This document shows positions 41 to 8,570 of a DNA stretch of 24,138 nt, piece after piece; the first letter of the stretch is position 1, and each line of letters begins with the position of its first letter. The position numbers and the translations under genes are program-made. The notes beneath the pieces are model-generated. The model was not told the DNA's origin and did no database searches. It worked only from the letters and a program-made list of their open reading frames with translations. The stretch spans positions 1-24,138 of the IMG/VR virus record IMGVR_UViG_3300047178_000088; one strand, written 5' to 3'. Origin of the DNA: a virus.

Positions 41-541
41 ATGAACTTTGATCCAAGAGCAGTCTATGAAGGTACTAACGGGGAAGTAACTAAAAGCTTT
101 TATCGACACATGGATTCCATCAGTATCCACGGAGAGTTGGCTACAGCCCTATTCCGCGCACAGAAGCGATCCTCAGCCGCAAAGAAGTATCGAGGCAGAA
201 AGTACACAAGTGCCGCGTACGAAGTCAAAGACTATTCGATAGGGGAAATCTGTAGAATCCTGACGCTTATCGATAAGTCAGACTTTGGGCCACCAGCGCC
301 TTATGTCTGGGGGTGGAAGCATGACCCAAGCACTCCCGGATTTGAATGGTTGTTGTATGTAATGCTTCCGCAAGGCGAGGTGTCGTTCCATACTTCAGAA
401 AGAAGGATTGGCCCTGACTACCCCGGAGAGTGGGATGGTACGCACCTAAGTGAGCAAAGGATACTAGCCTTCTGCGACTTCGTACTTGCTACGGAATCAT
501 TCTCTGACGAGCCATCTGCATTAGCTCACGCACGCTTCTAA
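41..541 (+). CDS. Hypothetical protein, 166 aa
   Basis: I do not recognise a function for this gene. It encodes a soluble protein with no signal peptide or membrane helix. The C-terminal half is rich in Trp, Tyr, Pro and Gly (a YVWGWKHDP segment, then a GPDYPGEWDG segment near residues 126-135), which suggests a compact globular fold. The ATG at 41 is preceded by a GGAG about nine bases upstream, so the start is reasonable. It is the only plus-strand gene in the left 21 kb. Its last 53 bases overlap, tail to tail, the 3' end of the minus-strand polyvalent gene, so the two transcripts would be complementary there. It probably begins a different operon that continues or ends to the left of the window. 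Confidence 0.75.
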   Translation: MNFDPRAVYEGTNGEVTKSFYRHMDSISIHGELATALFRAQKRSSAAKKYRGRKYTSAAYEVKDYSIGEICRILTLIDKSDFGPPAPYVWGWKHDPSTPGFEWLLYVMLPQGEVSFHTSERRIGPDYPGEWDGTHLSEQRILAFCDFVLATESFSDEPSALAHARF

Positions 542-1637
542 CTTCTGGCTGCGTGTTGTGGTTTGGATTGAGTCCTGCCGCCATAGCCTTAATCTGGTTA
601 AGCGGCAAAACATTCTTTGTCGGCACAGGAACAGGCGGCACCATCACGGGTGCTGAAGCTAACTGTGTTCCACCTTGTATTGGAAGTACAGTAGTTGGGC
701 CAGTTCCCGTGCTGGCCGCTACTGGCTCTTTCTGCTCCTTGTAGGGAGCAGCATTTTCCGCACTCTCCTCTGAATCAGTATTTGACTCCACACTTGATTG
801 TCCTGCCGCGTTAGGGTTTTCAGGCAACACATCATCTAGTTGCGAAAGATCGTCCTCGCCGGGATGAAAGGATACATCTGCGGCATCATGCCGATCTCCT
901 GTGATGACGTTGTACCCTCCAACCACCCCACCACGAATACCTACGGCAGGCTCATGGTCACTGATCCGAATCGTGGTCGGAAGCTGATCTTCGTCAGGAT
1001 GCTCTACTGTAATGTAGCGAGATGAGTTGTATCTTCCTTTCGAGGTAAAAGTGAACCCACGCTTCGTCAGTTCGTCTTCTACCGCTTTCTGTTTGTCATC
1101 CATGTAAGCGATTTTCTTCTCAAGCTGGCGGTCGTATTCCTCAGACTCTCTTTGCTTTTCCTCTTCTTCCTCGCGCTCTTCGTCTTTCCTGTCTAGGTCA
1201 GATTCGACAGCATCGTGACGCTCCTCTTCGGTCATCTCATCCCATTCGTCCCCGTAGGCGTCTTTCAATTCCTGCTCGGACTCAAGATACTCAGGAGACG
1301 CTTTACGTTTAGCCAAGTTTTCTTCTCTGAGAACTTTTGCGCGCTGCTCTCCTATTTCTCTTGCGCGTTTGGATACCGCAGTGAACGCTTGTGTCCCTTT
1401 GTTGTGAGGAAGTCCTGCGGCCTTCAAAGCCTCTTCAATGTCGCGGTTATAGGTCTTCCCCTTGCTTCCCAACTCCTGCGCGATGCGCTCAAAATCATCC
1501 GCGATAGGACTCTTTCCCTTTAGCGCGATATCAACCTTTTCCCCGTTCTTATCCGACACGGAGATGCTGGTAATAGGGAACGTCTTTCCTGCCGCTTCCT
1601 TCATGCCGGTGTACTTCTTAGCTGCTTCGGGGCGCAC
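489..1637 (-). CDS. C-terminal part of frameshifted polyvalent protein (second 2H motif, coiled coil, RISDHE segment)
   Basis: This frame is the continuation of the giant gene upstream (1666-5502), not an independent gene. The nominal GTG start at 1637 has no ribosome site and lies inside a protein domain. The frame is open back to about 1703 and there encodes EYKPHVTVAYV, the second H-x-T motif expected of a 2H phosphoesterase (HVT at 1647-1655). The rest has a helical region, a very acidic and basic coiled coil (about residues 140-190, with runs of Glu), and a short beta-like segment holding SSRYITVEH and RISDHE, a pattern I associate with phage accessory proteins but cannot name functionally. 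A Pro/Ala/Thr-rich tail follows. The 3' end overlaps the convergent plus-strand gene. If not made by frameshifting, this part is a pseudogene remnant. Confidence 0.7.
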   Translation of the reverse strand: MRPEAAKKYTGMKEAAGKTFPITSISVSDKNGEKVDIALKGKSPIADDFERIAQELGSKGKTYNRDIEEALKAAGLPHNKGTQAFTAVSKRAREIGEQRAKVLREENLAKRKASPEYLESEQELKDAYGDEWDEMTEEERHDAVESDLDRKDEEREEEEEKQRESEEYDRQLEKKIAYMDDKQKAVEDELTKRGFTFTSKGRYNSSRYITVEHPDEDQLPTTIRISDHEPAVGIRGGVVGGYNVITGDRHDAADVSFHPGEDDLSQLDDVLPENPNAAGQSSVESNTDSEESAENAAPYKEQKEPVAASTGTGPTTVLPIQGGTQLASAPVMVPPVPVPTKNVLPLNQIKAMAAGLNPNHNTQPEVRSVRELMQMARQRMIP

Positions 1638-1665
1638 ATATGCGACTGTGACATGCGGCTTGTAC

Positions 1666-4600
1666 TCATCGAAGGACGAAGGCGCAAACTCTCTCTGGTG
1701 ACTCTACATCGGCAACGATAGGCGCGGCACCATCGGAGTGTTCAGATGGTGGAAAGGCTTTTGTAGCTCCAAGGCTTGCTTCAAACGGAGCCTGCGACTC
1801 GATAAATTTCCTAAGCTCTGGAGTGAGGCTCGTCTTCAACCCGTATCGCAAAGTCACATGGGGATCGTCTACATCCTTACCCTTACCTGCCAAATCGGTA
1901 TCAGGGATACTCGACTGCATCGATGTGATAGCACCGTGGGCGGCGCTTTCAGCGGGCAGGTTGATCTGCGTTGATCCGAACTTGTACTTAGTCTCAGGCT
2001 CGTCCTTGTCATTTTTGGTATCGGCGGCAGGACTCTTTTCCCGGTTAAACAAAGCTTCGTCTTTTGGTTCTATTTTTATTCCTCTCCTGCGATCTATGAT
2101 CCATGCTGGAATCGAATCGAATCCCTGATCTTGCCAGTATTTTATGCGATGGTTACCATCGCTAATTTCAACCTTGCCGTTTTGCTTGATGACAATCTTT
2201 GCCGGTGGAACCGGCTTGCGGCCACGGGTTGCTTCCAAATCTTCCCAAGCATAGCTTCCGCCATCCTCGTCTTCCTCTTCCGCCAGCTTAGGCTCTAAGA
2301 TGCTTGGGTCTACATAGGCACGGTAAACCTTGCCCGGTTTACCGCCTCCGTAGTCCTTTAGGATTGAATCTTCATCAACCTTTTTACTCGTGTCCTGAAG
2401 GTCTTCACCGTACCAATCGACCGCAGGAGAAGTTCCCTCCGGCTCACGCTCTCCAAAACGTTCCTTCGAAACAGGAGTCTTGATCTTAGCGCCGATCTTG
2501 AACTTATTTCCCTCTCTGCGGATAGGAATCGAATCAGCAAAAGCCCTGTTAGCTTCCTCTCCTTTGGGCTTGAAAAAGTGAGCGTACTGCTCATCGGATT
2601 GTTGCTTCTTTCGAAACGTCCAGTCTCGCGCTTCCTGCTCACTGTCAAACGTCATGTTCTTTGAATAGTCCGTCCAGTGCTCAATATCCGATTTTCCTTT
2701 CTCCCTATTGAACAGCGGAACTCCCTCTCCTCCTACGCTAGTGGCGCGGAAGCTACCTTTGGCTGGCTTGTGAACATCGGGCGCGTTTTCGGTAGTTATT
2801 CCCGTCCGAGTCTGTCCAAAGGCTTCAATGGGTTTTGCGATACCGTCCTTGGCTAATGACTTCCATATTCCAATTCCCCCCTCGTTTTGGACCCCCTCCC
2901 CTACAATACGTTCTACTCCATGGGCTTTCGCTATCGAGGGTAGCTGCTCGTAAAGTTTTTTGGCTACACCTTTACCCCTCAAGTCTTTGGGAACTAATAT
3001 GCCAGAAGTAAACGCTTCTTTCGGGTCGTTTTCTCCGCCAAAAGAAACCTCCGCTATCTTTCTTCCTTTCCGAAAAGCTCTTACCTCTATTCCGTTTCCT
3101 GTATCTTTACTTTGATAAATAACACCATCAGATTCATGCTGCATTACCGGAGCTTTAGAATCATTCCAGTGCTGGTCTCCACTAGATTCTCCCGCCGCTT
3201 CACGTCTTTCCCTTTCTTCCTTCTTTGATTTCGCATACTCTTTGAATTCATCATCGGACATGCTATCAAAATCAATTTCATCCTGTCCCGCTGGAAGTTG
3301 CGGAGCGCCTTTTTCCCCGATATGCAACGCCTTGACTACTTTATCCAGCATGAACTTTGCGTCTTCGGGGTCGCTAAACCGCTCCGCTGCGGACTTTACC
3401 GCCGACTTCATGACCTCCATCGGATCGTATCCATTCTGTACAGCTAGATCGTATCCGTGGCGAAGTTGGGCCATACGCAGGCGTTCCTTGGGAGTCATGG
3501 TTTCTGGGGCACGCGTTGGGTCACCTACCTGCGAAACGGCCCATTTCAACGATTCTCCTAGTGCCTCGGGACTAGAGTCGTCAAGGCTACTGTAAGCATC
3601 GCGGTACTCTTTCAAGTCTTCTTCCGAGTGGCGTGTATCTCCTATGCCATATAACTTGTTTTGCTGCTCCTTCGTAAGACCAGCTTCCATCGTCAGGAGT
3701 TCATCCGCAGCCTTGTCCGCTTTCTCCATGTCGTAGGAATTATTAGCGGCACGCTGAAGGGCGTTGTACTTCTTAGCTCCTTCTTCCCCAAAAATGTCAA
3801 TTACATCCTGCTTATCGCGGGTTTTTGCCTTTTCATGCTCTTGCTTTATTTCGTCAAGAGTCATCTCATGGAGGGGCTTCTGTAATGATTCAGTGGAAGG
3901 CGCAGGAGCTACTGCTTGGGCGTTTGGTATACCTTCCGCATTCCCTCCTTGCCCCCCTTGAGCCACGCCTGATACAGCGCCGTTATCCTGTCCGCTTCTG
4001 GTACGGACATGTTCTTCGATTGCTCTGGCTTTTGCGTCTGCTGCGATCCCTCTGACATGGTGTAACTCCTGTAGCGCATTTGCGCCGTGTTTGTCTGTTA
4101 CTGAATTAAAGTAGCGGTCAAGGAAATCAACCGCATCATCCTCATCCACGCCAAATCTTTCTGGCCTACCGTCCATCAGCTTCGCGGCAGCTTCCGTAAC
4201 CATCTCTGGGGAGTTGTGGCCTGAGTAGCCATTCTCTACGAGATGTTCATACATTCCGCTAGGAATAGCATGGTAAAGGTCAGTTAACGCCTTGGGGTCT
4301 AGGTGTTGGTTCACGTCGCCATTTGCAAGGGAGCGCTGCCATGTGTGATTCAATTCCTCACGCATGACGTTCACGTTGGACTGTAGCGATCCACGCTTCT
4401 TCCCGATAGCCACGCCACCGTCGCCCGCATTCTTGTGAGCCTCAGACAAAAGCTTTTGCACCTCGCCAAACTGAGGATTAGCCGCCGCCAATTGCGGATC
4501 GTTGGCAAATGCTTCAAGGTGTTCGTTGGCAGGAAGATTCATACCATGTGTTTCCGCAGCATCCTCGCCCGGATACAGCGCGCTCATCAAAGAGTGCCAA

Positions 4601-5502
4601 GCGTCAGGACTCAACCAGACTGCGGGAGCCTGTCCCTTAGCTTGCCTTACTTCTCCTGCCCCGTTACGGTGAAGTACGTTTGTCCTTTCGCGGGCAGGAG
4701 CCTCCGTGACGGGCGTAAACGGATGCTTCGTCAGGGCGTGCTTCCCTGTCAAAAGCGCCATGATTCCAGTCACGCCCATTTCGCCCTGAAGCTTCCGCGC
4801 TTCGTCTAAATTCCCTTCGTCTACGGCCTTTCGGTATTCTTTGTTTTGCTGATACAGGCCATGCAGCATATCGAGGGTAAATCCGCCTGAAACGAGCCGC
4901 GACAATACTCCTGCGGTGACAGGGTTTACGACACCAGCAGTTACTCCTGCCGCTACCGCTGTGCCGCCCATAATAGCAAGGTTTTTTCCGCTAGTAAGGT
5001 TCCCGGCTGCGGTAAGAGCACCCTCCACGCGCTCGCTGTTGGCCTTCGTGTCAAACTCTTTCCTCTCCGCTTCAGGTAAAACCGACCCCGCAACCTTCAT
5101 CGTGACAGGAGTTAGGTACTCAGGCGCTAGAATCTGCCCTTTATGCTGTTCGTAGGTAGGGGAGTTTGACGACTCGGAAGGATGCAGGTTGAGCGCATCC
5201 GCAATCCCCGGAAGCGTAGATTCTAACGAATGTCCGATGGCGCTGTTAGCCACAGAATCACGTAGCTGTTCCAGTACGGATGGGCTGTACGAGCTAAGCA
5301 CGTATCCGGTGGGTGGGACGACAGGCTTAATCTTTTCAGCCTGAGCCTTGACTTCTTTGAGAGGCATAGCTGACTTCTTTGGCGCATCGCTTCTCTTGGA
5401 AGACAGGAGACTGTATCCCTGCGGAAGTTTCATGTCTTCCGTAGGAACTATAGGCTCCCCACTCTCGTCAAGGTAATGCTTTAACGTTGCATTGCTCGCC
5501 AT
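1666..5502 (-). CDS. Giant polyvalent virion-associated protein, N-terminal 1278 aa (zincin-like, GNAT, ParB-like, first half of 2H phosphoesterase)
   Basis: This is a multi-domain protein of the type called a polyvalent protein, likely packaged with and injected alongside phage DNA. Visible parts in order: a Gly/Ala/Val-rich hydrophobic segment at about 174-208; a zincin-like helix REELNHTWQ at 381-389, where the first His of HExxH is missing; a long charged helical region at 545-765; a GNAT acetyltransferase at about 785-900 with the acetyl-CoA loop LRGKGVAKK (841-849); a linker LFNREK at 930-935, repeated at 1151-1156; a ParB-like segment with DGNHR (1115-1119) and IPAWIID (1131-1137); and the start of a 2H phosphoesterase with HVTLRYG (1215-1221). 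The frame then stops early, and the second HVT is in another frame. The ATG at 5502 overlaps the end of the upstream peptidase-like gene by 22 bases, so translation is probably coupled. Individual domain calls are motif-based; the GNAT and 2H calls are the firmest. Confidence 0.8.
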   Translation of the reverse strand: MASNATLKHYLDESGEPIVPTEDMKLPQGYSLLSSKRSDAPKKSAMPLKEVKAQAEKIKPVVPPTGYVLSSYSPSVLEQLRDSVANSAIGHSLESTLPGIADALNLHPSESSNSPTYEQHKGQILAPEYLTPVTMKVAGSVLPEAERKEFDTKANSERVEGALTAAGNLTSGKNLAIMGGTAVAAGVTAGVVNPVTAGVLSRLVSGGFTLDMLHGLYQQNKEYRKAVDEGNLDEARKLQGEMGVTGIMALLTGKHALTKHPFTPVTEAPARERTNVLHRNGAGEVRQAKGQAPAVWLSPDAWHSLMSALYPGEDAAETHGMNLPANEHLEAFANDPQLAAANPQFGEVQKLLSEAHKNAGDGGVAIGKKRGSLQSNVNVMREELNHTWQRSLANGDVNQHLDPKALTDLYHAIPSGMYEHLVENGYSGHNSPEMVTEAAAKLMDGRPERFGVDEDDAVDFLDRYFNSVTDKHGANALQELHHVRGIAADAKARAIEEHVRTRSGQDNGAVSGVAQGGQGGNAEGIPNAQAVAPAPSTESLQKPLHEMTLDEIKQEHEKAKTRDKQDVIDIFGEEGAKKYNALQRAANNSYDMEKADKAADELLTMEAGLTKEQQNKLYGIGDTRHSEEDLKEYRDAYSSLDDSSPEALGESLKWAVSQVGDPTRAPETMTPKERLRMAQLRHGYDLAVQNGYDPMEVMKSAVKSAAERFSDPEDAKFMLDKVVKALHIGEKGAPQLPAGQDEIDFDSMSDDEFKEYAKSKKEERERREAAGESSGDQHWNDSKAPVMQHESDGVIYQSKDTGNGIEVRAFRKGRKIAEVSFGGENDPKEAFTSGILVPKDLRGKGVAKKLYEQLPSIAKAHGVERIVGEGVQNEGGIGIWKSLAKDGIAKPIEAFGQTRTGITTENAPDVHKPAKGSFRATSVGGEGVPLFNREKGKSDIEHWTDYSKNMTFDSEQEARDWTFRKKQQSDEQYAHFFKPKGEEANRAFADSIPIRREGNKFKIGAKIKTPVSKERFGEREPEGTSPAVDWYGEDLQDTSKKVDEDSILKDYGGGKPGKVYRAYVDPSILEPKLAEEEDEDGGSYAWEDLEATRGRKPVPPAKIVIKQNGKVEISDGNHRIKYWQDQGFDSIPAWIIDRRRGIKIEPKDEALFNREKSPAADTKNDKDEPETKYKFGSTQINLPAESAAHGAITSMQSSIPDTDLAGKGKDVDDPHVTLRYGLKTSLTPELRKFIESQAPFEASLGATKAFPPSEHSDGAAPIVADVESPERVCAFVLR
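1689..1696 (-). other. Frameshift site: (CT)4 run joining the two halves of the polyvalent gene
   Basis: The upstream frame is open to 1666 and the downstream frame is open from about 1703, so the shift must fall within 1669-1703. A CT dinucleotide run lies in the middle. One extra CT unit, or loss of one base, would restore a continuous frame reading DVESPE, then EFAPSSFDEYKPHVTVAYV. A change of +1 (one base skipped) is needed. The link between the two motifs looks short for a 2H protein, so a small out-of-frame deletion is another possibility. Confidence 0.75.
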
Positions 5503-6209
5503 CCGTGACCATCCCAGACCCCGATTTTACCATTGACGAAACGTTTGGTTTGGCCAACTTTAGGTGCAACCGACGATCCCAATAGCGGATCAGTCACCAT
5601 GGGCATCCCGGCCACGGTCGCAGGCGGGACACTAGGGGCGGAAGGAGTCAAATCTTGCTGTGTCATCTTTGTCATATCCGCCCCTTTTGGGGGTATGCTC
5701 GCTAGCTGGCTTACAAATGGATGGTAGGCTGCTGTAACTCTTGACAACGCTTTCCTATCTCCCTTATTCAGTGCATCGGCTACAAGGCGTTGGTAATCAG
5801 ACACAATCTGCGCCTGTTGCTCCGCGTTGAAATTCGCAATCGTCTTCCGCTGCTTGATCGCGTTCTCTAGCCCTGAAATGCCATCATAGTCGAGCAATGT
5901 TTCCGCAGTCTTGCCTGCAAAATTTTTGGTATCCATCGCATTGTCTAAAAACCCATCATTCCTGCTGAGTTGATAGATGTGCGTCGATTCGTGCGTCTGC
6001 ACAGGCTGCGTAAACAGTTGTGGTTGGCGCACGCTGATCGTCGTAGGCGAATTAGGATCAACGTCCGCAATAATGGTTGCATTCGCGGAATAAGCTTTGG
6101 GCGGAGCAGGAAGAATCTTTGTATCCGCATTTGCAGGACGTATAAACGCAGGTAGGTTCTGGATTTTATAGTCCGGTGGTGGAGTTGCCTTTACCATGGG
6201 AATTGGCAT
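5481..6209 (-). CDS. HESTH zincin-like metallopeptidase, 242 aa
   Basis: This is a probable zinc metallopeptidase or a structural relative of one. The helix QTHESTHIYQL carries the HExxH signature (His73, Glu74, His77). Further on, at 128-137, NAEQQAQIVSDY resembles the downstream helix that supplies further conserved residues in DUF4157-type zincins; Glu130 could be the third zinc ligand (inference). Before the motif is a Pro-rich stretch, and after residue 170 a Pro-rich linker leads to a short C-terminal segment. It has no signal peptide, so it probably acts in the virion or injected cell. A purine-rich AGGTGGGG lies just before the ATG, and the upstream gene's TAG ends one base before this ATG. 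The next gene starts within its last codons. The target is unknown: peptidoglycan-associated, virion or host proteins are all possible. Confidence 0.7.
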   Translation of the reverse strand: MPIPMVKATPPPDYKIQNLPAFIRPANADTKILPAPPKAYSANATIIADVDPNSPTTISVRQPQLFTQPVQTHESTHIYQLSRNDGFLDNAMDTKNFAGKTAETLLDYDGISGLENAIKQRKTIANFNAEQQAQIVSDYQRLVADALNKGDRKALSRVTAAYHPFVSQLASIPPKGADMTKMTQQDLTPSAPSVPPATVAGMPMVTDPLLGSSVAPKVGQTKRFVNGKIGVWDGHGWRAMQR

Positions 6210-8570
6210 CTACCCCACCTGCTGTCCCGTATTTGGGTCTATCCATATACGCCCATCTCGACTTACTACACGGTGGCCCGTTTCTGGATTCACTGCGGTA
6301 TGGGCGTAAGCAACCTGTCCTTGCGCGGCAGGACTAACTGGAGGTGTAATCGAGGATTGGGGGCCGGGTACTGCACTTTTTGTCAAATCATCTTTGGACT
6401 TTTGTACGTATCCATTGAATTTCTTGTAATATTCTGGACTCATCCTCTTAGTCATGTTGTACGCGACAGGAGGAAGATAGGGAAGTTTCGACGCTATTCC
6501 CCTAGCCATGGTAAGCATTTTAGCAGCCTTGGCTGGATTGACCATTGCCCAAGCGAACGAGCGGGCAACGGCTCCTTCGGTTGCTACTCCACCCAGACCA
6601 ATTAGTGCCCCAGCAGCAAGCCCACTTTCATAGTGCCCATTTCCTATTCCTGCCGCTACAGGCACCGCCGCTGCTATACCGATACCGCCACTTAGCAATT
6701 TCTTCATAATGCCAACGTTTTGCAGCGATGCGCCGCCTCCGCCGCCAAGACCAACCGGGCCATTAATGCGCCCAACAAGTTCGGAAAGCTCTTTGACGTT
6801 CTTCCAATTCGAGCCAAAAATTATCTGCCCACGTTCATCGCCAAGCTTATAAACGTAGTTAGCAAACTTCCCTTCGTCAAACGCTCCGCTCCTCTCGGTG
6901 GCTTTGGCCACTGCATCTTGTAACAGACCACGGCGAACAGGATCATGAAGTTTTTGAGGTAAAGCCTTAAATAGATCGCGGGTCTGCTGTAACCCTATCG
7001 TCTTACCCCCTAACAGGGATGCAATAAATTCTGGATTCTCTGATTCAGCGGCCTTTTCTACCAATTTCTGTTCAAACATTTGATGGCCTTCTGCGGTAAC
7101 CGCGTTTGCCTCGCGCCATCTTTGCTTCAATCCGGGTATACCACTTTTGTCGGCTGCATCTTCAAGAGCTTTGTCCGATAGCTCTGTAAATTTCTTAGCT
7201 AATCCTAATTTACCCCCACCCATAACCTCATCCAAATCTCTGACTTGACTTAGCAGGACGGAACGCATGTCTCTCATTCTTTTGAATGAAACTTCGTTTG
7301 GGTTTTGAAGGATCGTATTGAAAGCCCCACGCGCTTTTTCCGCAGCGTCTGGAGGAAGGAAGTAGGGGGGCTTGTTTATCTTATCCAATTGCTCCTGCGC
7401 AAACCTCTTCAATTCAAGCATTGAAGGCATAACCCGCGTTTTTTCCGGCACTTGAACTGTTTGCATTACGACTTTACCGGAAGCGTTGCGTACAGGAACA
7501 CCGTTCTTTATCACGGGAGCTAACTTGGTCGTAGCAGGAGTTACTACCTGCTCCGTGACATTATCCAGCGCCCCATAGAGCATGTTTTGTTCAGCACGAA
7601 GAGCAGCCTCAGAATCCTCTAGCCCCTTCTGTACCATTAAACCTAGCTGTTCAGGGGTTCCCTTAAAGCTGGAAACGCTGTCCATCAGTTTATTGGCTGC
7701 GGCTAAGGATTCTTTGTTTTGGGCCTCACGGAACTTATCCATGATGCCCTTGGACAGTACCGAACCCTTCAAAAATTCTTCCAGCCATGTAGGGGCTTTG
7801 CCTGCCGCTTCAGACGGTAGCAGACGTACTCCGGCCTTGGCTGATTCGTCCGCTGCAAATCCAAAATAGCGGGCAGCAGCGCCAAGCGGCATCGCGATGA
7901 CTCGCCCACCGACCTCAGACGCTCCGCCTAGCAGCGCTTGCTTACCAATGTTTTTTGCTCTTTCGCCCGGAGTCTGATTTTCACCAAACAAAAAGTGATT
8001 GATTCCCTGTTTTGCCGTCTCTCCAGCCGCGCCACCAGCCGCCGCGCCACCAGCCGCAATAGCCAAGTCTAACGGCCCGGTAGCCGCTCCGGGAACACCC
8101 GTAAGGAGCGCCCCACCCATCGAGCCAATCGTTGGAAGTGAATCAGTAGCCCCGTGCGCGGCTTTTACCGCTCCACGCTTCATGTATTCTTTAGAGCCGG
8201 GTGCGGGAGTGGGGACAACTCCGTAATCCTGAACATTCTGTTCGTCATCGCTTTCGACAGTAGGGGCTTTCCCCTTACCCTGAAGTTCGGTAAATAGGTC
8301 GTGGGCGTATCGCGTATCGTCTCCACTGGTAGGATCAAAAGCAAAACCCTGCTCGCGTGCAGCCTTGATGTTTCCGTAGGGAATCATTATTCCGCTCTTT
8401 ACCTCTGAACCAGAGGGCGGAACCATCCTATATGTTCCCTGCTTTTTGGGATTAGCTGTAAGCGTATCTACCGATGGCGCAGATGATTCGGCTATCCCCG
8501 CATATGGGTCTGACTCCGCGATGCTGGCATACGGATCAGTCGCCGGTGCTTGTTTATTCTTGTCCGCCAT
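6210..8570 (-). CDS. Large putative internal virion / DNA-ejection protein, 786 aa
   Basis: I infer a virion ejection protein from its size, composition and position; there is no catalytic motif I recognise. It opens with two tandem nine-residue repeats, DPYASIAES and DPYAGIAES (12-29). A Gly/Ala-rich hydrophobic region spans about 147-185, long charged helices run through 260-600, and two further hydrophobic Gly/Ala segments lie at about 622-643 and 650-668. A C-terminal tail holds a GHRVVSRDGRIWIDPNTGQ segment. Amphipathic and hydrophobic Gly/Ala regions next to long helices fit a protein that crosses the cell envelope during DNA entry. Its ATG overlaps the upstream stop as TAATG, showing translational coupling. 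It could instead be a tape-measure-like or tail-lumen protein. Confidence 0.7.
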   Translation of the reverse strand: MADKNKQAPATDPYASIAESDPYAGIAESSAPSVDTLTANPKKQGTYRMVPPSGSEVKSGIMIPYGNIKAAREQGFAFDPTSGDDTRYAHDLFTELQGKGKAPTVESDDEQNVQDYGVVPTPAPGSKEYMKRGAVKAAHGATDSLPTIGSMGGALLTGVPGAATGPLDLAIAAGGAAAGGAAGETAKQGINHFLFGENQTPGERAKNIGKQALLGGASEVGGRVIAMPLGAAARYFGFAADESAKAGVRLLPSEAAGKAPTWLEEFLKGSVLSKGIMDKFREAQNKESLAAANKLMDSVSSFKGTPEQLGLMVQKGLEDSEAALRAEQNMLYGALDNVTEQVVTPATTKLAPVIKNGVPVRNASGKVVMQTVQVPEKTRVMPSMLELKRFAQEQLDKINKPPYFLPPDAAEKARGAFNTILQNPNEVSFKRMRDMRSVLLSQVRDLDEVMGGGKLGLAKKFTELSDKALEDAADKSGIPGLKQRWREANAVTAEGHQMFEQKLVEKAAESENPEFIASLLGGKTIGLQQTRDLFKALPQKLHDPVRRGLLQDAVAKATERSGAFDEGKFANYVYKLGDERGQIIFGSNWKNVKELSELVGRINGPVGLGGGGGASLQNVGIMKKLLSGGIGIAAAVPVAAGIGNGHYESGLAAGALIGLGGVATEGAVARSFAWAMVNPAKAAKMLTMARGIASKLPYLPPVAYNMTKRMSPEYYKKFNGYVQKSKDDLTKSAVPGPQSSITPPVSPAAQGQVAYAHTAVNPETGHRVVSRDGRIWIDPNTGQQVG

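Follow-up and report, generated by a model that had tools for sequence, protein, structure and literature searches.

Our analysis indicates that positions 489–5502 on the minus strand of IMG/VR virus record IMGVR_UViG_3300047178_000088—24,138 bases, analyzed at full length and termed here the window—encode a polyvalent cargo protein, in a phage from soil with relatives among the phages of Acidobacteriota. In the reading that we favor, with a probability of roughly 0.75, this protein would be ejected together with the phage DNA and would carry, between fixed ends, exchangeable enzymes, one of which, a 2H phosphoesterase, is broken in this contig. Gene context suggests that synthesis would be late, that the protein would be packaged alongside the ejection proteins encoded in its operon and that it would enter the cell as infection begins. 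A leader with a variant zincin-like domain, together with a tail, would enclose the GNAT, ParB-like and 2H cargo, with LFNREK peptides at the module joints. Judging from family knowledge, acetylation of host proteins would fall to the GNAT domain and binding or cleavage of nucleic acid to the ParB-like part; the 2H domain would hydrolyze cyclic-nucleotide signals or RNA 2',3' ends. The first-pass annotation had located the region correctly and had described it as one chain of about 1670 residues; this length holds only if the DNA is read across a frameshift, the region consisting of two open reading frames (ORFs) of 1278 and 382 aa in different frames (Table 1). Because the 2H domain is destroyed by a 35-bp deletion plus the frameshift, the chain expected to be intact in this contig would extend only up to the GNAT and ParB-like domains.

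Table 1. Positions, strand and basis of the features described in the text (window coordinates).
Feature	Positions	Strand	Basis or remark
ORF 1, 1278 aa: leader, zincin-like domain, helical segment, GNAT, ParB-like segment, first 2H half	1666–5502	-	
Constant N-terminal region, aa 8–527	3922–5481	-	58% identical to G001, most cargo behind it differs
Zincin-like domain, aa 273–500	4003–4686	-	AF2 model and weak structural matches
EExxH motif (EELNH), aa 382–386	4345–4359	-	Seven-copy alignment
Helix-rich segment, aa about 540–770	3193–3885	-	Helix content by eye
GNAT acetyltransferase core, aa 804–874	2881–3093	-	Pfam and Foldseek
LFNREK linker copy 1, aa 930–935	2698–2715	-	After GNAT
ParB-like segment, aa about 1058–1138, DGNHR motif	2089–2331	-	Match to a PF02195 protein
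LFNREK linker copy 2, aa 1151–1156	2035–2052	-	Before 2H module
2H phosphoesterase module, split by frameshift	1497–1986	-	PF13563 profile across break
First 2H motif, HVTLRYG	1840–1860	-	ORF 1
Junction of 35-bp deletion and frameshift, in (AG)n run	1691–1692	-	Relative to intact sister gene
Second 2H motif, HVTVAYV	1635–1655	-	Only in ORF 2 frame
ORF 2, 382 aa from GTG: 2H end, acidic coil, RISDHEP/HPGE domain, constant C-tail	489–1637	-	Frame other than ORF 1
Acidic E/K-rich coil-like stretch	In ORF 2	-	By eye
C-terminal domain with RISDHEP and HPGE motifs	813–1019	-	
Constant C-terminal tail	498–713	-	Common to G001 and L069
Adjoining ORF, 242 aa, canonical HExxH (THESTH)	5481–6209	-	Weak match to P22 injectosome/ejection families
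Adjoining ORF, 786 aa, DNA transfer protein-like	6210–8570	-	PHROG 770, E=1.1e-5

The layout of the protein emerges from its comparison with two relatives, the sister protein G001 (IMGVR_UViG_3300010233_001233; 1680 aa) and L069 (2482 aa). Its leader is 58% identical to that of G001 over 527 aa and 46% identical to that of L069 over 329 aa, while the tail shares 41% identity with L069 (156 aa) and 36% with G001 (98 aa). Between these ends, the GNAT and ParB-like segments of the window protein are replaced by an LPD-type domain and an ADP-ribosyltransferase (ART) in G001, and by several zincin-like and ART modules in L069; the 2H module is shared with G001 at 70% identity and is intact there, in a single frame, such that ART and 2H lie in one chain. 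The comparison of these three proteins thus showed a conserved leader and tail flanking cargo that is exchanged, and the conservation and genomic context of both ends led us to infer a role in delivery. If correct, this yields a small group of related genes that differ in the cargo placed between constant ends; with them, one could ask which parts bring about entry into capsid and cell, and whether processing takes place at the short linkers. The single chain of the L069 relative (L069:5816-13261) has EExxH domains and ART domains, two of each, along with a separate HExxH motif. ORF 1 of the window by itself holds the GNAT domain, the ParB-like segment and the zincin-like domain, i.e., at least two unrelated catalytic or binding domains. 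Searches of IMG/VR by a peptide-pattern method, with either the whole protein or its GNAT-ParB part, found no relatives.

The zincin-like domain is represented by seven copies in six proteins, and no copy departs from R-E-E-x-x-H-x-x-Q or from a glutamate further on (E165 of the aligned segment). The putative zinc site therefore reads EExxH rather than HExxH in 7/7 copies. An AF2 model of the domain reached a pLDDT of 83.2 and its PDB matches included anthrax lethal factor, IrrE/PprI and other zincins—with Z scores of only 2.9–4.1 and amid unrelated entries. Foldseek gave no significant match for this model in PDB or among viral models, and no meaningful PDB sequence match was obtained with the domain alignment. 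Given the variant site and these low Z scores, we describe the weakly matching domain as zincin-like and claim no peptidase activity for it; the zincin-like part proposed from the first reading persists as a candidate fold, but not as a canonical HExxH peptidase. The canonical HExxH is located in the neighboring gene. Such a motif was found in the gene adjoining the polyvalent gene in three of three phages, the window and both sister phages (window 5481-6209, L037:9790-10674 and L079:11900-12673), and the three proteins share PPP[DG]Y at the N-terminus and KRFxNxKIGxWDGHGW at the C-terminus.

Among the cargo segments, the GNAT identification is well supported at the levels of sequence and predicted structure, as had been anticipated: the PF00583 match (E=2.3e-5, 25.1 bits) lies above its cut-off of 20.7, and Foldseek assigned probabilities of 0.97–1.0 to GNAT structures, starting from a model of low overall confidence. 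For the ParB-like segment, no profile matched directly, PF02195 included; phage searches returned nothing at E≤0.01, and sequence searches of the PDB were likewise empty. Its best phage match was gp284 of Bacillus phage G, with E=0.3 within the collection and 3e-8 in the pairwise comparison; gp284 is annotated as a ParB-like nuclease and itself matches PF02195 with E=3e-9. The proposed ParB-like identity is thus moderately supported, via this relationship and the DGNHR motif, and lacks a profile match of its own. The single-sequence model of the GNAT-ParB part was poor (pLDDT 47), and its ParB portion was therefore not taken as evidence. No profile match above cut-off was found for the helix-rich segment, and none for the domain with the RISDHEP and HPGE motifs. 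The coiled coil that had been suggested corresponds, by eye, to an acidic, E/K-rich stretch in ORF 2. PADLOC returned no result.

The evidence for a 2H module in the window DNA is likewise strong at the level of homology. Read across the break, the module matches PF13563 with E=8.6e-7 (29.6 bits against a cut-off of 27)—a score that indicates descent, not function—and its counterpart in G001 does so with E=1.2e-10. Both HxT motifs lie in one frame in all 25 2H loci found in IMG/VR, G001 among them, whereas in the window they fall in different frames, such that no single folded domain would contain both HxT/S motifs; no hits came from searching genome contigs with the 2H alignment. Relative to the G001 gene, 35 bp are absent between VESPE and the strand bearing the second HxT, and the frame is shifted as well, such that about 12 residues are lost just ahead of that strand. 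ORF 1 stops inside the 2H domain, soon past the deletion, and ORF 2 has GTG as its only start, with no purine-rich ribosome site visible upstream of it. The 2H assignment of the first-pass annotation consequently stands as homology and is not supported as a functional domain in the sequence as written. Divergence from the sister gene by codon position amounts to 15/12/59 before the break and 10/10/35 after it; as it is concentrated in third positions on both sides, the lesion is, on this codon signature, either recent or an assembly error.

The latter option comes close to an even prospect: the break would be a sequencing or assembly artefact, and the phage would in reality produce a single intact chain of ~1,680 residues with an active 2H domain. 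The evidence derives from one metagenome contig, the sister protein and other 2H relatives are intact and the codon-position bias continues past the break, all of which fits an artefact. However, a clean loss of 35 bp at a short AG repeat resembles a replication deletion more than a base-calling error, and no further frame break was seen in the contig wherever sister proteins match it. For the window phage, 2H activity cannot be assumed on the present sequence. The 2H domain would be the likeliest of the modules to act against cyclic-nucleotide defence or RNA damage, yet it is the sole broken module in the contig—a warning that a contig can carry a predicted anti-defence enzyme in broken form although the rest of the chain appears intact.

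The repeated LFNREK linker noted at first reading was confirmed, with exactly two copies starting at aa 930 and 1151. The broader pattern [FR]N[RK]E[KQ] occurs 2, 3 and 5 times in the window protein, G001 and L069, respectively, whereas shuffles gave an expectation of 0.009 for the window protein and about 0.01 per protein overall. Outside these three proteins, one stray match was detected among the 577,144 residues in open frames of the collected loci, and none of the 64 other ORFs of the 59-kb L069 phage carried the linker. The codons vary between copies, which argues that selection acts on the peptide; DNA homology of the linker as a recombination site was rejected on the same grounds. We also rejected LFNRE as a general ART ending, since a loose pattern fits only 7 of 78 ART ends; a related ending, NPDIR[FY]S, occurs often among them. 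A credible, if less favored, candidate is that LFNREK would be the natural end of certain domain families, carried along with them, and neither a joint nor a processing site. That many ART-PolyVal domains finish in the related NPDIR[FY]S sequence is in line with it, but the same FNRE[KQ] is found, with varied codons, beside modules as unlike as GNAT, ParB-like, zincin-like, LPD and ART. A more elaborate proposal, which we consider rather unlikely, is a delivery platform with constant leader and tail and interchangeable effectors, in which the LFNRE[KQ] linkers would be cut, perhaps by the adjoining HExxH zincin, thereby freeing the effectors in the host.

The reading as an ejected cargo protein draws on the gene neighborhood. 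Upstream of the polyvalent gene, and in the same direction, lie the 242-aa HExxH ORF, the DNA-transfer-like gene and a tail-fibre-like gene, the last two placing this phage-borne gene near virion and ejection functions, as is typical of polyvalent proteins. The 242-aa ORF weakly matches PHROG 917 (E=0.0022), and the families involved are described as freed from the phage upon infection. Because the protein sits beside ejection-type genes, its injection into bacteria along with the DNA is likely. Homology and genomic position thus back the earlier view that this is a phage protein of the polyvalent kind, probably ejected, in which GNAT, 2H and ParB-like parts are combined. Moreover, a 1086-aa virion-type protein of the window has relatives with about 30% identity in Tunturiibacter phages 1-3, which have podovirus morphology (PMC11924767); on this basis, the host is probably an Acidobacteriota bacterium and the phage is probably podovirus-like. 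No tRNA genes were found in the 24,138-base window. The same setting could hold a late protein of the structural or ejection type, its enzyme-like modules being relics devoid of anti-defence function, as the variant EExxH site, the broken 2H domain and the large low-complexity parts might suggest. We regard this as distinctly improbable: EExxH itself is invariant in seven copies, 2H modules with both catalytic motifs preserved recur in phages that are unrelated, and the cargo is exchanged, not decayed. Finally, a programmed ribosomal frameshift joining ORF 1 and ORF 2 is hardly credible, despite the codon-position bias kept in both frames and the (AG)n run at the junction, as relatives require no shift and the 2H domain of the shifted product would still lack the ~12 residues ahead of the second HxT and thus be damaged.

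Iyer et al. 2017 (PMC5512222) described polyvalent proteins of phages and conjugative elements that include MPTase, GNAT, ParB and 2H domains, and proposed that such domains counter host defences, including nucleotide-activated systems; the anti-defence reading of the domains is therefore plausible here, but not new. Like those proteins, the cargo protein is a large multi-domain chain encoded near virion or ejection genes, and its MPTase/zincin-like, GNAT, ParB and 2H classes, as well as ART, all appear in that paper; it differs in having EExxH in place of HExxH. The domain combination had been put forward as undescribed. This holds for the exact set, GNAT plus ParB-like plus 2H between conserved ends, which does not occur in the part of PMC5512222 covered here, and not for the domain classes listed there. 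Nor does that part make any mention of a repeated FNRE[KQ] linker, and the word 'linker' is absent from the main text. Turning to 2H enzymes, Acb1 is an anti-CBASS 2H nuclease with HxT motifs (PMC9117128). It shares the 2H fold and two HxT motifs with the module described here, and the intact G001 protein gave a match to the Acb1 profile that stayed below threshold (23.1 bits, the cut-off being 27; E=6.5e-5). Acb1, however, forms a protein by itself, and the best family for the present module is PF13563. As both polyvalent domains and 2H anti-CBASS enzymes were already described, the combination shuffles known parts anew, and the fresh part is the layout of linkers and constant ends. The Tunturiibacter phage protein Tunturi_5 gp321 (XOB77764.1) also unites a SprT-like zincin, 2H and GNAT in one protein, with a 2H region 36% identical to that of the window. 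It differs in containing ADP-ribosyltransferases as well, in lacking LFNRE linkers, in its other leader and in belonging to a jumbo myovirus. This protein (L002:2573-6661) is annotated as a MutT/NUDIX hydrolase; Pfam detected a SprT-like zincin (just below cut-off), 2H, ART-PolyVal stretches and GNAT, and the protein is apparently a misannotated polyvalent protein.

Additional features of these loci were observed. In four relatives, the gene that comes after the polyvalent gene is conserved and ~305–330 aa long (L037:3809-4726, L039:6140-7126, L040:8869-9792 and L079:3522-4451), and its C-terminal cysteines resemble, by eye, those of Cas4-type nucleases; it was not seen in the window, which ends shortly after the polyvalent gene. 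Several proteins of the ejection operons (L041, L042, L070, L071 and L072) have in common an N-terminal motif of the type LVKVxxLGxVxFPxxMPDExI, which is possibly a packaging or delivery signal. In addition, several operon proteins (window, L037, L039 and L040) contain a short LxELRxxAxxRxP-type motif, helix-like in character and often close to an end.
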